A stretch of 64,000 bases of DNA from assembly GCF_014332515.1 (NCBI RefSeq), contig NZ_VFSD01000006.1, positions 124,001 to 188,000 on the forward strand, given 5' to 3'. Origin of the DNA: Pontibacter beigongshangensis (GTDB taxonomy: Bacteria > Bacteroidota > Bacteroidia > Cytophagales > Hymenobacteraceae). A model generated the notes under the pieces. It ran no database searches. It saw nothing but the letters and a program-made list of their open reading frames with translations, and was not told the DNA's origin. The position numbers and the translations under genes are program-made. This document shows positions 29,403 through 34,311 of the stretch, piece by piece. Position 1 is the first letter of the stretch; each line of letters starts with the position of its first letter.

Positions 29403-30164
29403 TTAAGTGAGCATCCAGTCGATGTCGGCATCGTTGGTGTGGTGGTGGGGAAGGAGCAGCTGAAACAGCGCCTGGTCTATCAGGCTCTCGCCGTTCATGG
29501 TAAACTCCTGAATAGAGCCGTTGTACATCAGGTGCCCGTCGTTGAGCACGCCAATATGCGTAGCCACCCGCTCCACATAGTTCAGGTCATGCGACGAGAT
29601 GAGCACCACTCTGTTGGGGGTGCTGTAGCTGCGGATAAGTTTTACCAGCAACTGCGCCGCTATCGGGTCCAGCCCCGTAAAGGGCTCGTCGAGTATCAGC
29701 ACGCGCGGCTTGTGCAGGATAGCGGCCACAATGCCCACCTTCTTTTTCATGCCGGTAGAGTAGCCGGCAATGTTTTTCTGCAGCGACTCCGTTTCAGAAA
29801 AAAAGTAATCGGTCAGGCTGCTGATGCGCCGATCCGCCTCCTCCTGTGGCAGCTTGTAGAGTTTGGCCACAAAGTTCAGGTATTCCAGCCCGGTAAATTC
29901 TTCAATCAGGGGGTTGTCTTCACAAAGGGCGCCCAGATCCTGCTTCACTGCCAGGTTATCCTGCGTATAATTTTTGCCGAACAGGCTGATGCTGCCTGCG
30001 TCTGGCTTAATTAAGTCCAGAATGGAGTTCAGAAACGTGCTTTTGCCTACGCCATTTTTTCCTAAAAGGCAATAGCAATGCCCTTGTTCTATCGTGAGGT
30101 CAAGCGCCTGTAACACCTGTTTCTTTCCAAACGCTTTAGACAACCCTCTGATTTCGATGCTCAT
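29403..30164 (-). CDS. ABC transporter ATP-binding subunit
   Basis: A 253-residue ABC ATPase. Walker A reads GKNGVGKST, the signature motif appears as the variant YSTGMKKKV, and Walker B with catalytic Glu is VLILDEPFTGLDP, followed by the switch His in ISSHDLNYVE. The open frame extends to 30254, but I start at the methionine at 30164 (MSIEIRGLSKAFGKKQVL), because domain homology begins there. It pairs with the membrane subunit downstream. The DRI/CcmA-like form suggests an exporter. It is divergent from the TonB receptor at 30517, with a shared regulatory spacer. Confidence 0.9.
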   Translation of the reverse strand: MSIEIRGLSKAFGKKQVLQALDLTIEQGHCYCLLGKNGVGKSTFLNSILDLIKPDAGSISLFGKNYTQDNLAVKQDLGALCEDNPLIEEFTGLEYLNFVAKLYKLPQEEADRRISSLTDYFFSETESLQKNIAGYSTGMKKKVGIVAAILHKPRVLILDEPFTGLDPIAAQLLVKLIRSYSTPNRVVLISSHDLNYVERVATHIGVLNDGHLMYNGSIQEFTMNGESLIDQALFQLLLPHHHTNDADIDWMLT

Positions 30165-30516
30165 ATATTTTATGATTTGGCTAAAAGAAATTTGCCATTT
30201 ACTTAACGGCCGCTGGGAGCTAAAAATAAGAAGAAGCCCCGGAAAGTCCTGCAAGGTAAATGGTTATAGTCACAACGAAAAAATGCTGCACCTGTTGCCC
30301 ACCACATTTCTTTCGACTTACTCAAGAACAACAACCTTCTCACCCAATAAGGTTCTATTCAGTAACCAGTAAATTCCAATTTACTCATTCCTAGATAAAT
30401 ATATTTACTAATCCGGTAAAATGAAAATGTTAGAGTTGTAGATAATTTAAATTTAGGTTTATCTAAAAAAATATTTAAATTTGGTTTCGAAATAAATTTA
30501 GATAGATCATATAACT
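30165..30516. other. Divergent promoter region
   Basis: A 352-bp AT-rich spacer between the ABC ATPase and the TonB receptor. The receptor-proximal part holds a metal-regulator-like operator and a -7 box (30452-30483). No gene is present. Confidence 0.65.
30452..30483 (+). promoter_or_regulatory. DtxR/MntR-like operator over a promoter
   Basis: TTTAGGTTTATCTAAA (30452-30467) is a near-perfect dyad of the TTTAG-GT form recognised by DtxR/MntR/IdeR-type metal repressors. The sequence TAAATTTG (30476-30483) fits the Bacteroidota -7 box, so the dyad would cover the -33 region. A further half site TTTAGAT is at 30497-30503. The start codon of the TonB receptor follows at 30517. Confidence 0.55.
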
Positions 30517-32787
30517 ATGAGAAACACATTTACGCTTATCCTGGTGTGGCTATCGGCGATGTCGGGTATTGCTCAGACGGGCGCTATCCGCGGTAAAGTG
30601 ACAGGAACTGGTGCCCCGGCGTCGTTTGCGAGCATCGGGCTGGAGGGAACAGTTTTAGGTGCCACTTCTGATGCCGAGGGTAATTTTGAGCTGAGGCAGG
30701 TGCCAGCCGGAAGCTACAGACTGCAGGTACGTGCTGTAGGCTTTGCCCCTTACGATGCCGCCGTGACCGTTATGCCAGAACAGACGGCGTGGGTGGAGGC
30801 TACGCTGCGACAGCAGGCGGCCAGGCTGCGCGAGGTGGTGGTGACAGGCACTATGCGCGAGACATTCTCGCTGGAATCGCCGGTGCCGGTGGAGGTTTAC
30901 ACCTCCAAATATTTCCAGAAAAACCCGACGCCGGCCCTGTTTGAAGCGCTGGCACAGGTAAACGGAGTGCAGCCGCAGATCAACTGCAACGTGTGTGGCA
31001 CCGGCGACATTCATATAAACGGTATGGAAGGCGCCTACACCATGGTGCTGATAGATGGTATGCCACTTGTGAGTGCCCTCTCTACGGTGTATGGCCTGAG
31101 CGGCATACCCAACAGCATGATCGAGCGGGTGGAGGTGGTGAAGGGGCCAGCCTCTACGCTGTATGGTTCTGAGGCCATGGCAGGGCTGATAAACGTAATC
31201 ACTAAAAGCCCGGCTAAAGCGCCCCTTGCTTCGGCCGATGTATTCTTTACCAGCCACCGGGAGCTGAATGCGGATGTGGGCCTGAGCCGCCGCTGGGGCA
31301 AGGCCTCCACACTGCTAAGCACCAACTACTACCGCTTCCAGAACCGGCGAGACGTGAACCACGACAACTTTACGGATGTGCCGCTGCAGCACCGGATATC
31401 ACTCTTTAACAAATGGGCTTTCCAAAGAAAAGACAACAGGCTTGCCTCGCTCGCGGCACGATATTACTACGAAGACCGCTTTGGCGGAGAACGACAGTGG
31501 GCACCGACCTACAGAGGAGGCGACAGCATCTACGGCGAGTCGGTGTATACGAGGCGCTACGAACTGATCGGGACGTACCAACTGCCGGTGCAGGAGCACC
31601 TGATGCTGAGCTACTCCTACAACGACCACCACCAGAACTCCGCCTACGGCAACACCTCCTACATCGGGCAGCAGCGGGTGCTGTTTGGGCAACTGGTCTG
31701 GAACAAGGAGCTGAACCAGCGTCACCACCTGGTGGCCGGCGCCACCTACCGCCACACCTACTACGACGACAACACGCCCGCCACCGAGCAGCAGAGGCCG
31801 CAGGGGGGGCAGAACGAACCAGTTACCACGCGGCTGCCAGGCGTTTTTGTACAGGACGAGCTAAAGCTCTCTGCTGCCACCACCTTACTGGCCGGGCTGC
31901 GCTACGACTATAATACGGAGCATGGCAGCATTTTAACACCTCGCCTCAACCTGAAGTGGGCACCAAACGACGATCATGTTTTCCGGATGAGCCTGGGCAA
32001 AGGCTACCGTGTCGTGAACCTGTTTACCGAAGATCATGCCGCTTTAACCGGTGCCCGTGAGGTAGTGATCCGGAATGAGCTGAAGCCGGAGGAGTCTTAT
32101 AACGCCACCCTGAACTACCAGCACTTCCTGAACCTGGCACAGGGTTACCTGAACCTGGAGGGAAGCGCCTTCTACACCTACTTCACCAACAAGATCGTGG
32201 CCGACTTCCTGACCAACAACTATCAGATCATCTACGACAACCTGAGCGGCCATGCCGTGTCGAGGGGAGTGGCCTTAAATGCCGAGATGGCGCTTACGGC
32301 ACCTTTGCGGGTGCATGCGGGCCTAACCCTGATGGAAGTGTACCAGGTGCAGCAGCCCGAGGGCAAACAGCAAGACATAAAAGTGCCGCAGCTGCATGCG
32401 CCTGCCTTGTCGGGCACGTTTACAGCCTCGTATAACTTTCCGGCAGCCAGGTTGCTGCTCGATTATACCGGCACCTTCAGCAGCCCGATGCACCTGCCGG
32501 TGCAGGAAAATGATTTTAGGCCAGAGAAGTCGCCGTGGTTTACGCTGCAGCATGTGCAGCTCACCAAAAGCTTTGGCAAAGGACTGGAACTGTACGGGGG
32601 CGTAAAGAACATCTTCGACTTTATGCCACGGCACCCGCTCATGCGCCCCTTCGACCCCTTCGATAAGCAGGTGGAGGTGAACAATCCTAACAATTACTCT
32701 TTCGACACTGAGTACAATTATGCGCCCCTGCAGGGCCGACGCACCTTTATTGGATTGCGGTACACGCTGGCGGAAACTAAAAAGTAA
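30517..32787 (+). CDS. TonB-dependent receptor, probably metal-regulated
   Basis: A 756-residue outer-membrane receptor. A signal peptide ends near SGIAQ (residue 20). Residues ~23-100 form a carboxypeptidase-regulatory-like beta domain. The plug follows (about 118-230), with NCNVCGTGDIHINGMEG, VLIDGMPLV and VEVVKGPASTLYGSEAMAGLINVITK. The remainder is a 22-strand barrel that ends RYTLAETKK. The two cysteines of NCNVC are a hallmark of one receptor branch. A DtxR/MntR-like operator overlaps the promoter, so iron or manganese control of uptake is inferred. The carried ligand is not identified. There is no DUF4249 partner here. Confidence 0.92.
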   Translation: MRNTFTLILVWLSAMSGIAQTGAIRGKVTGTGAPASFASIGLEGTVLGATSDAEGNFELRQVPAGSYRLQVRAVGFAPYDAAVTVMPEQTAWVEATLRQQAARLREVVVTGTMRETFSLESPVPVEVYTSKYFQKNPTPALFEALAQVNGVQPQINCNVCGTGDIHINGMEGAYTMVLIDGMPLVSALSTVYGLSGIPNSMIERVEVVKGPASTLYGSEAMAGLINVITKSPAKAPLASADVFFTSHRELNADVGLSRRWGKASTLLSTNYYRFQNRRDVNHDNFTDVPLQHRISLFNKWAFQRKDNRLASLAARYYYEDRFGGERQWAPTYRGGDSIYGESVYTRRYELIGTYQLPVQEHLMLSYSYNDHHQNSAYGNTSYIGQQRVLFGQLVWNKELNQRHHLVAGATYRHTYYDDNTPATEQQRPQGGQNEPVTTRLPGVFVQDELKLSAATTLLAGLRYDYNTEHGSILTPRLNLKWAPNDDHVFRMSLGKGYRVVNLFTEDHAALTGAREVVIRNELKPEESYNATLNYQHFLNLAQGYLNLEGSAFYTYFTNKIVADFLTNNYQIIYDNLSGHAVSRGVALNAEMALTAPLRVHAGLTLMEVYQVQQPEGKQQDIKVPQLHAPALSGTFTASYNFPAARLLLDYTGTFSSPMHLPVQENDFRPEKSPWFTLQHVQLTKSFGKGLELYGGVKNIFDFMPRHPLMRPFDPFDKQVEVNNPNNYSFDTEYNYAPLQGRRTFIGLRYTLAETKK

Positions 32788-32906: not shown

Positions 32907-32988
32907 GCGCACGTGGTGAAACTGGTAGACACGCCATCTTGAGGGGGTGGTGCCTTCGGGTGTGGGAGTTCGAATCTCCCCGCGCGCA
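32907..32988 (+). tRNA. tRNA-Leu (GAG)
   Basis: An 82-base tRNA with the class II long variable arm of leucine tRNAs. The anticodon stem CCATC/GGTGG encloses the loop TTGAGGG with anticodon GAG (32941-32943). The T arm is GGGAG/CTCCC with the loop TTCGAAT. The acceptor stem (GCGCACG with CGCGCGC) has one A5-C68 mismatch. The discriminator base is A and CCA is not encoded. It has a strong promoter and a GC-rich terminator. Confidence 0.95.
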
Positions 32989-32997
32989 CTTCTTCAT

Positions 32998-33225: not shown

Positions 33226-34311
33226 ATGCTGCTATTACAAGTCAAAAAAATGCGGGTCCTACTTCAATGGACACTGATTTTCCCGGTTCTGGCCTGGGTG
33301 CTGTTCTTCTCAGGACTGATCCCAGGCAACGATATCTTTAAATTTATAGCAAGCGCTCTCCTGATCCTGAGTGTGATGTCGGCTGTTCATCATTCTGAAA
33401 TTATTGCGTTCAAGGTTGGAGAACCGTATGGCACCATTATCCTGGCGGTTTCGATAACGGTAATTGAGGTCTCCATCATTATTTCGCTTATGATGTCGGA
33501 TGGGCAGGAGGCTGTTTCGCTGGCCAGAGATACCGTGTATTCGGCCACGATGCTTATCCTGAACGGAATTGTAGGGCTGTGCCTGCTTATTGGGGGCCTG
33601 AAGCACCATGAGCAGAATTTTTCCAAACCTTCCGTCACCATCGCCCTGGTTTCGCTGATCTCCATTGTAGTTTTTACCTTGGTGTTTCCCACCTTTACCA
33701 AGAGCGTTGTAGGATCTTATTACTCAACGCCTCAACTAGTTTTTGCCTCTATAGCCTGCCTGGTTATTTACTCTTTCTTTTTATTTGCCCAGACCAAAAG
33801 GCACAGGCAATACTTTCTTACCACAGGAGACAGTGAGGAAAGTATTGAAATCAGCAAATGGGTGTTTCTGACAAGTCTGGTTTTTCTGCTGATCAGTCTG
33901 GGCATTGTGGTGCTCCTGGCAAAAACGCTCTCCCCAACCATTGAAACCATAATTGCAAACAATAACCTCCCGAAGGAATTGGTGGGTGTTATCATAGCAG
34001 CGATAATTCTGTTGCCGGAAGGTGTGGCAGCCATAAATGCGGCGCAGAAGAACAGGCTTCAGACCAGCCTGAACTTGTCGTTGGGTTCTGCGCTGGCCAG
34101 TATCGGCTTAACCATCCCAAGTGTGGCGATCGTCTGCATCATCTATGACATGAAAATTATTCTGGGCCTCGACATTAAGTCCATTATCCTGCTGGGGCTA
34201 TCCGTGTTCACGGTCATGCTCTCGCTCAACAGCGGTAAGACGAATATTGTGTATGGGGTGGTACTTTTAGTAAACTTGTTCGCCTTTATTTTCCTGCTTA
34301 TTTTTCCCTGA
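33226..34311 (+). CDS. chaA: Ca2+/H+ (Na+/H+) antiporter ChaA
   Basis: A 361-residue inner-membrane antiporter of the CaCA superfamily with about 11 hydrophobic helices. The two family repeats are visible: GEPYGTIILAVSITVIEVS in the first half and LLPEGVAAINAAQKNRLQ followed by GSALASIGLTIP in the second. Each holds a Glu at the position expected for cation binding. The length is close to the E. coli ChaA. It should expel Ca2+ or Na+ in exchange for protons at high pH or salt. The gene is alone between the tRNA and a 31-bp element. Confidence 0.92.
   Translation: MLLLQVKKMRVLLQWTLIFPVLAWVLFFSGLIPGNDIFKFIASALLILSVMSAVHHSEIIAFKVGEPYGTIILAVSITVIEVSIIISLMMSDGQEAVSLARDTVYSATMLILNGIVGLCLLIGGLKHHEQNFSKPSVTIALVSLISIVVFTLVFPTFTKSVVGSYYSTPQLVFASIACLVIYSFFLFAQTKRHRQYFLTTGDSEESIEISKWVFLTSLVFLLISLGIVVLLAKTLSPTIETIIANNNLPKELVGVIIAAIILLPEGVAAINAAQKNRLQTSLNLSLGSALASIGLTIPSVAIVCIIYDMKIILGLDIKSIILLGLSVFTVMLSLNSGKTNIVYGVVLLVNLFAFIFLLIFP

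Follow-up and report, generated by a model that had tools for sequence, protein, structure and literature searches.

A conserved palindrome, very probably an MntR operator, upstream of the gene for a predicted TonB-dependent manganese receptor in Bacteroidota

The passage of manganese through the Gram-negative outer membrane is poorly known. The sources considered here name MnoT of Burkholderia (PMC9315381, PMC13217887) and, as a candidate, the CQNC receptor of Stenotrophomonas maltophilia (PMC13217887) as outer-membrane manganese receptors. In the parts of these sources considered here, MnoT is described as a TonB-dependent outer-membrane Mn transporter that is induced at low Mn (PMC9315381, PMC13217887); it is similar to YncD and acts together with TseM, a secreted protein of the T6SS (PMC9315381). 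The CQNC receptor, reported in 2026, is described as MntR-controlled and as associated with a periplasmic thioredoxin-fold protein, which the authors suggest reduces the receptor motif; such receptors, together with a 25-bp box, are described for Lysobacterales, Sphingomonadales and Opitutales, and the main text of that paper does not contain the string "Bacteroid" (PMC13217887).

On the regulatory side, the portion of PMC4805248 considered here reports that PgMntR of Porphyromonas gingivalis binds the promoter of its own Mn-transporter operon, more strongly with Mn; this protein has two FeoA domains and the predicted ligands Asp19 and Cys108, and it serves the transporter FB2. As for receptors of free metals, the part of PMC8610252 used here describes how OprC of P. 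aeruginosa, a copper receptor, holds the bare metal ion through Cys/Met of the plug and His/Met of the barrel, an example of bare-metal binding by a plug Cys in combination with residues of the barrel. Another paper on copper receptors (PMC12914433) uses neither "manganese" nor "cysteine" in its main text, and we found no Bacteroidota Mn receptor in the titles and abstract openings listed by searches of the open-licence PMC literature.

A palindrome before the receptor gene

The window, that is, the whole 64-kb stretch of DNA that was analysed, contains the following features around the site of interest.

29403–30167, minus strand: ATPase of the divergent, exporter-like ABC transporter, probably unrelated to the system
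30452–30467, plus strand: predicted MntR-type operator (MntR box), TTTAGGTTTATCTAAA, starting 65 bp 5' of the receptor ATG and conserved before receptor orthologues and fabH-mntR
30476–30483, plus strand: -7 promoter element TAAATTTG, of the TANNTTTG type, 8 bp past the operator (a promoter by consensus only)
30497–30503, plus strand: half site TTTAGAT, present but not a full palindrome
30517–32787, plus strand: TonB-dependent outer-membrane receptor, 756 aa, predicted Mn importer (Pfam Plug, TonB_dep_Rec_b-barrel, CarbopepD_reg_2)
30586–30843, plus strand: N-terminal CarboxypepD_reg-like domain, residues 24–109 (Pfam)
30874–31185, plus strand: Plug domain, residues 120–223 (Pfam)
30982–30996, plus strand: NCNVC segment, residues 156–160, with Cys157 and Cys160, both present in 84/84 unselected orthologues

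The receptor ATG, at 30517, lies downstream of the palindrome, of TAAATTTG and of the half site. The 16-bp dyad of the initial annotation is real and lies 8 bp before TAAATTTG. The usual Bacteroidota promoter consists of TANNTTTG at -7 and TTTG near -33, and from the spacing to TAAATTTG at -7 the -33 region falls inside the palindrome. The proposal that the dyad overlaps the -33 position agrees with the spacing seen here. TANNTTTG occurs at -8 to +40 bp from 51 of the 106 boxes examined before receptors and is missing from the other 55; its distance from the box is 4 bp in 18 cases, 8 bp in 6 and 30–32 bp in 17, with many Pontibacter relatives showing 30–31 bp. Because TANNTTTG is near only 51 of the boxes, and often 30–31 bp away, the exact overlap of box and -33 region is not conserved and the promoter geometry is not uniform. 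The second half site noted in the initial annotation does occur, but nothing beyond its presence speaks for it: inspection by eye of the relatives' upstream sequences showed no conserved counterpart, and its inclusion in the system is not supported.

Plain counts of the palindrome were uninformative. In the window, TTTAGN6CTAAA with at most one mismatch matched 3 times, against 2.36 expected, which is no excess, and there was no second TTAGN6CTAA core. In the source genome (5.75 Mb, 75 contigs), the exact form occurred at 6 places, as did the reversed control, and the one-mismatch form gave 58 matches versus 49 for the reversed pattern, again no clear excess. When the inner purine and pyrimidine were also fixed (TTTAGRNNNNYCTAAA), exactly two sites were left in the 5.75 Mb and none for the reversed control. 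One precedes the receptor gene; the other (C75:49165–49180) precedes fabH-mntR-mntABCD. The search for further copies of the dyad before metal genes, which the initial annotation had proposed, was therefore successful, as the only other consensus copy stands before a metal-transport operon. In some relatives the TTTAGRNNNNYCTAAA pattern is no commoner than its control (8 versus 8 in genome G014, for example), implying that its position matters rather than its number. Since the counts in window and genome show no excess, the significance of the site must rest on comparison.

We compared the site first within the family. Among 80 genomes of the same family, the receptor was found in 36 (one match each, E ≤ 1e-80) and was absent from 44 at that threshold. 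We examined 30 of the 36 loci, own genome included; TTTAGN6CTAAA was upstream of the receptor in 29 of these, while the last one (L028) has ATTAGACCAATCTAAA, with one mismatch. The regulator gene, mntR, is present in 78 of the 80 genomes. In all 30 family loci examined for it, own included, TTTAGN6CTAAA occurs about 1.15–1.33 kb upstream of mntR, where it precedes fabH-mntR.

For the whole phylum, genome contigs were scanned and the best 80 of 576 confirmed relatives were taken; the closest named ones in this set are from Pontibacter, at about 70% identity. TTTAGN6CTAAA lies upstream of 44 of these 80 receptors; P. roseus (L120), for instance, has both receptor and box. The remaining boxes were GTTAG...CTAAC and ATTAG...CTAAT versions, so that the core can be defined as TTAGN6CTAA. 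This core was found within 200 bp upstream in 70 of the 80 named Bacteroidota receptors (best 80 of 576), as compared to a mean of 0.55 and a maximum of 3 in shuffled sequences. One of the two scan patterns, PQ[LI]NC[NS]VC, contained the plug cysteines, and any count of CxxC in the 80 named loci, or in the alignment A2, is consequently biased. For this reason, we also searched 395 Bacteroidota genomes drawn without regard to the motif. The receptor was present in 86 of them (one match each, E ≤ 1e-120), and the 84 orthologues analysed, with identities down to 36%, are all of those not already covered by the earlier sets. Between 250 bp upstream of the chosen start and 40 bp inside it, 74 of the 84 have TTAGN6CTAA (shuffles: mean 0.69, maximum 3). 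By comparison before the same genes in family and phylum, then, the palindrome is a conserved site.

Counting against the operator reading, the core box is missing in 10 of the 80 named receptors (best 80 of 576) and in 10 of the 84 unselected ones. Six of the 80 loci have neither core box nor mntR (L131, L144, L159, L160, L161 and L182); among them are L144, L159 (Larkinella), L160 and L161 (Runella). A small conserved gene precedes the receptor in five loci, including L159, where it matches no Pfam family.

The receptor, its neighbours and its cargo

The protein has the architecture of a TonB-dependent receptor, with plug and barrel both found by Pfam, by the structure model and in the CirA fold. 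An AlphaFold2 model based on an alignment of 73 sequences (pLDDT 85.7) took the place of an earlier one with 11 sequences, whose plug was poorly modelled. Among the matches listed, the closest solved fold is CirA (Z 37.5, rmsd 3.2, 555 residues aligned), with several others, FyuA, Fiu, FptA and BtuB (Z 35.0) among them, within about 2.5 Z units. The 50 structure matches listed include no solved manganese receptor, an absence that excludes nothing. The window receptor scored far below the cut-offs of the NCBIfam models for siderophore, heme, B12 and PqqU receptors. In a plasmid collection (40 matches listed from 1527 records), no match covering at least 80% of the query exceeded 28.4% identity.

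The initial annotation had pointed out an unusual NCNVC segment in the plug. This segment reads INCNVCG in the window receptor, and its two cysteines occur at the same place in every one of the 84 orthologues drawn without regard to the motif, in which Met182, His371 and His507 are invariant as well. His469 is found in 82 of the 84, Met658 in 66 and His166 in 48 (Arg replacing it in 35); the latter two are invariant in alignment A2, which is biased toward the plug pattern, but not in the 84 unselected orthologues. In a profile alignment, the CNVC loop comes to lie opposite the loop of the CirA plug that precedes SIRG; in solved receptors this loop faces the binding cavity.

An mntR homologue stands near the receptor in 31 of the 80 named loci (best 80 of 576), within 1 kb in 28 of them and divergent in 27 of these 28; the unselected stretches have one in 34 of 84, divergent within 1 kb in 15. 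Genes for MntA, MntD, MntH or ZIP occur in 17 of the 80 named loci (best 80 of 576) and in 21 of the 84 unselected stretches, mntB being left out of the count because any ABC ATPase matches it. The gene order is mntR-mntA-receptor-mntB-permeases in L138 (Chryseosolibacter) and L151, and mntR-receptor-mntH in L187. In 17 of the 80 named loci (best 80 of 576) and in 45 of the 84 unselected ones (48 without regard to strand), the gene directly behind the receptor, in the same orientation, is of the thioredoxin fold. No such gene lies beside the receptor in the window; in this genome it sits elsewhere, behind mntABCD.

Downstream of the window receptor are a tRNA-Leu (gag) at 32907–32989 and a gene for a ChaA-like Ca/H exchanger at 33226–34311. 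The initial annotation had further suggested that the divergent ABC transporter shares the control of the receptor. We rejected this candidate: the pair is exporter-like, it starts 284 bp from the box and, in the best 80 of 576 relatives, the only loci that show it directly divergent from the receptor are the five of Pontibacter, L118–L122. The transporter is probably outside the system. More distant ABC ATPases are found on the divergent side in L167, L181 and L191.

Taken with the regulator described below, these sequence comparisons make it likely, in our judgment, that Mn-loaded MntR represses the promoter and that the receptor imports Mn(II) or a Mn complex in a TonB-dependent manner. The main alternative accepts an MntR/DtxR operator and supposes that the receptor chiefly imports something else for which there is a need under Mn or Fe shortage, for example zinc or an iron complex. 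The cargo of most known TonB-dependent receptors is an iron complex, heme or B12; CirA and BtuB are among the nearest folds in the matches listed, and Zn is a further possible substrate of the ZIP and ZnuA-type neighbours. The part of PMC4805248 considered here reports in vitro binding of Fe as well as Mn by PgMntR. This alternative nevertheless appears unlikely in view of L138 and L151, where the receptor lies inside the mnt operon, of other loci in which it adjoins mntH, and of the own genome, in which the consensus box is common only to the receptor and the mntR operon.

The regulator and a mechanism for repression

The second box of the genome is upstream of fabH, followed by the gene for a DtxR-family regulator and by a four-gene metal ABC transporter, mntABCD, made up of a ZnuA-family binding protein, an ATPase and two ABC-3 permeases. 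The MntA-like protein has the zinc binder AztC as its best NCBIfam match, under the cut-off. About 0.5 kb behind mntD there is a DsbH/DsbD-like gene of the thioredoxin fold (L016:3838–4395), whose product shares 37% identity over 117 residues with the one behind the L185 receptor. Among 20 fetched mntR regions, 12 have mntABCD after mntR, and in 10 of these 12 the thioredoxin gene lies at most 250 bp behind mntD; L214 has mntABCD without a thioredoxin gene in reach, and in L215 that gene is 2.9 kb further on. Six other regions have a thioredoxin gene about 2–3 kb after mntR without mntABCD. In the two of these that were read (L200 and L211), the gene between mntR and thioredoxin is MntH-like, the L200 protein exceeding the NCBIfam cut-off (604 bits versus 430). 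L216 and L217 have neither mntABCD nor a thioredoxin gene.

Some further features were recorded on the side. The gene fabH (3-oxoacyl-ACP synthase III, L016:10123–11127), which lies between MntR box and mntR (L016:9275–9928, minus strand) in the own genome, is present in all 30 regulator loci examined (L058–L087), which places a fatty-acid initiation gene inside a putatively Mn-repressed operon. The MntC-like permease (L016:5989–7272) ends in a C-terminal DtxR-type metal-binding domain (PF02742) and is thus a permease-regulator fusion. A second DtxR-family gene (39% identity) occurs in another genome (G012:C1:2150896–2151477), just upstream of the receptor and divergent from it, where the main mntR is also present.

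Three domains of the regulator exceed their cut-offs: PF01325 (HTH), PF02742 (metal-binding/dimerisation) and a single FeoA domain, PF04023. Among solved structures its best relative is 5zr4; SloR and ScaR are among those that come next. By spacing, Glu101, Glu104 and His105 match the Mn-type ligand set of B. subtilis MntR (Glu99, Glu102 and His103, as listed in the portion of PMC4805248 considered here). At the positions of MntR Asp8 and Glu11, all 31 regulators of the 80 loci (best 80 of 576) have Asn and Lys, respectively, so that their metal selectivity can be called Mn-type only provisionally. In loci holding both box and regulator, the outer pair of the box varies with the recognition helix: T-A is accompanied by TKAASVTDM-like helices, A-T by INAASVTDF, and G-C by IKMPTVNSM or VSKPTVNAM; L164 and L181 are among the exceptions. 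This covariation is what direct binding by MntR would give, although it is confounded with phylogeny, as related species share both.

It might be argued that the regulator is an IdeR/DtxR-type iron sensor heading an iron regulon: the Pfam name of its family is iron-dependent repressor, and the box resembles half of an IdeR/DtxR site. We regard this as quite improbable. The protein has Glu where the iron-type DtxR has Cys102 (a position mapped by spacing), its best NCBIfam match is MntR (NF047407, 175.6 bits) rather than DtxR (83.2 bits), both below the cut-off, which for MntR is 350, and its operons, where seen, carry mntABCD or an MntH-like gene. That the palindrome is a chance AT-rich dyad without function, as counts no higher than chance in the window and an exact form no commoner than its reversed control might suggest, is extremely improbable, because family and phylum alike keep it in front of the same genes.

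The palindrome is, on the comparative evidence, very probably the operator of the cell's MntR. The iron- or manganese-controlled uptake put forward in the initial annotation is supported, and regulator, operon and neighbours narrow it to a Mn response or a Mn-led Mn/Fe response. Because of the mntABCD or MntH-like partners and the type of regulator, manganese is the best reading for the sensed metal; a response modulated by Fe is possible.

The MntR-Mn reading predicts the following mechanism. The repressor, a DtxR-family MntR with a FeoA domain encoded elsewhere in the genome, would be metal-loaded when cytoplasmic Mn(II) is sufficient and would then occupy the box, covering the -33 region and spacer and turning the receptor promoter off. 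When Mn is scarce, the box would be free and the receptor would be made together with the inner-membrane importer encoded in fabH-mntR-mntABCD, and probably also with the thioredoxin whose gene lies behind mntABCD. TonB energy would then drive the uptake of Mn(II), or of a Mn complex, by the receptor through the outer membrane. The likely metal handles are the Cys-x-x-Cys of the plug and the conserved His and Met residues, and the thioredoxin-fold protein would probably keep the two plug cysteines reduced or help metal release.

The receptor would accordingly belong to a conserved, little-studied Bacteroidota family of probable manganese importers. With these results, a family present in 86 of 395 sampled Bacteroidota genomes gains a putative regulator, an operator sequence, conserved residues that are candidates for binding the metal, and a probable redox partner; [TGA]TTAG-N6-CTAA[ACT] can be offered as the candidate consensus of MntR operators in much of the phylum. 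A bolder version, which we advance only tentatively, is that of a phylum-wide dedicated Mn(II) import line, in which a redox-active Cys-x-x-Cys in the plug of the receptor holds the bare metal, to be gated or released by a periplasmic thioredoxin that is itself under Mn control. If true, this would couple outer-membrane Mn uptake to the thiol redox state.

Comparison with known systems

Among the systems mentioned at the outset, PgMntR resembles the regulator of the window genome in being a Bacteroidota DtxR-family protein with FeoA. As far as PgMntR has been described in the source used, it differs from the regulator here, which carries a single FeoA domain together with Asn8 and Glu101 and is associated with mntABCD and a receptor box. 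MnoT is similar in being a TonB-dependent receptor, with Mn as the predicted cargo and control by low Mn predicted here. Unlike the YncD-like MnoT, the window receptor reaches only 43.5 bits against the PqqU model, whose cut-off is 1200 (PqqU and YncD we take to be one protein). With OprC, whose described site is CxxxM-HxM and whose substrate is copper, the contrast lies in the plug CxxC and the MntR box.

By its described features, the nearest published system is the Stenotrophomonas maltophilia CQNC receptor. It, too, has an MntR box ahead of a TonB-dependent receptor whose plug carries Cys-x-x-Cys, with a partner of the thioredoxin fold and with mntH and mntR in the vicinity. Compared with what is reported for CQNC, the motif here is C-N-V-C (C-N/S/G-V/I-C, or C-A/G/S-V-C in distant members), the box has 16 bp, the range is Bacteroidota, and the thioredoxin gene of the window genome is found behind mntABCD, not beside the receptor. 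Judged by analogy, the occurrence in Bacteroidota of a similar set of MntR box, plug CxxC and thioredoxin supports both the reading proposed here and that proposed for S. maltophilia.
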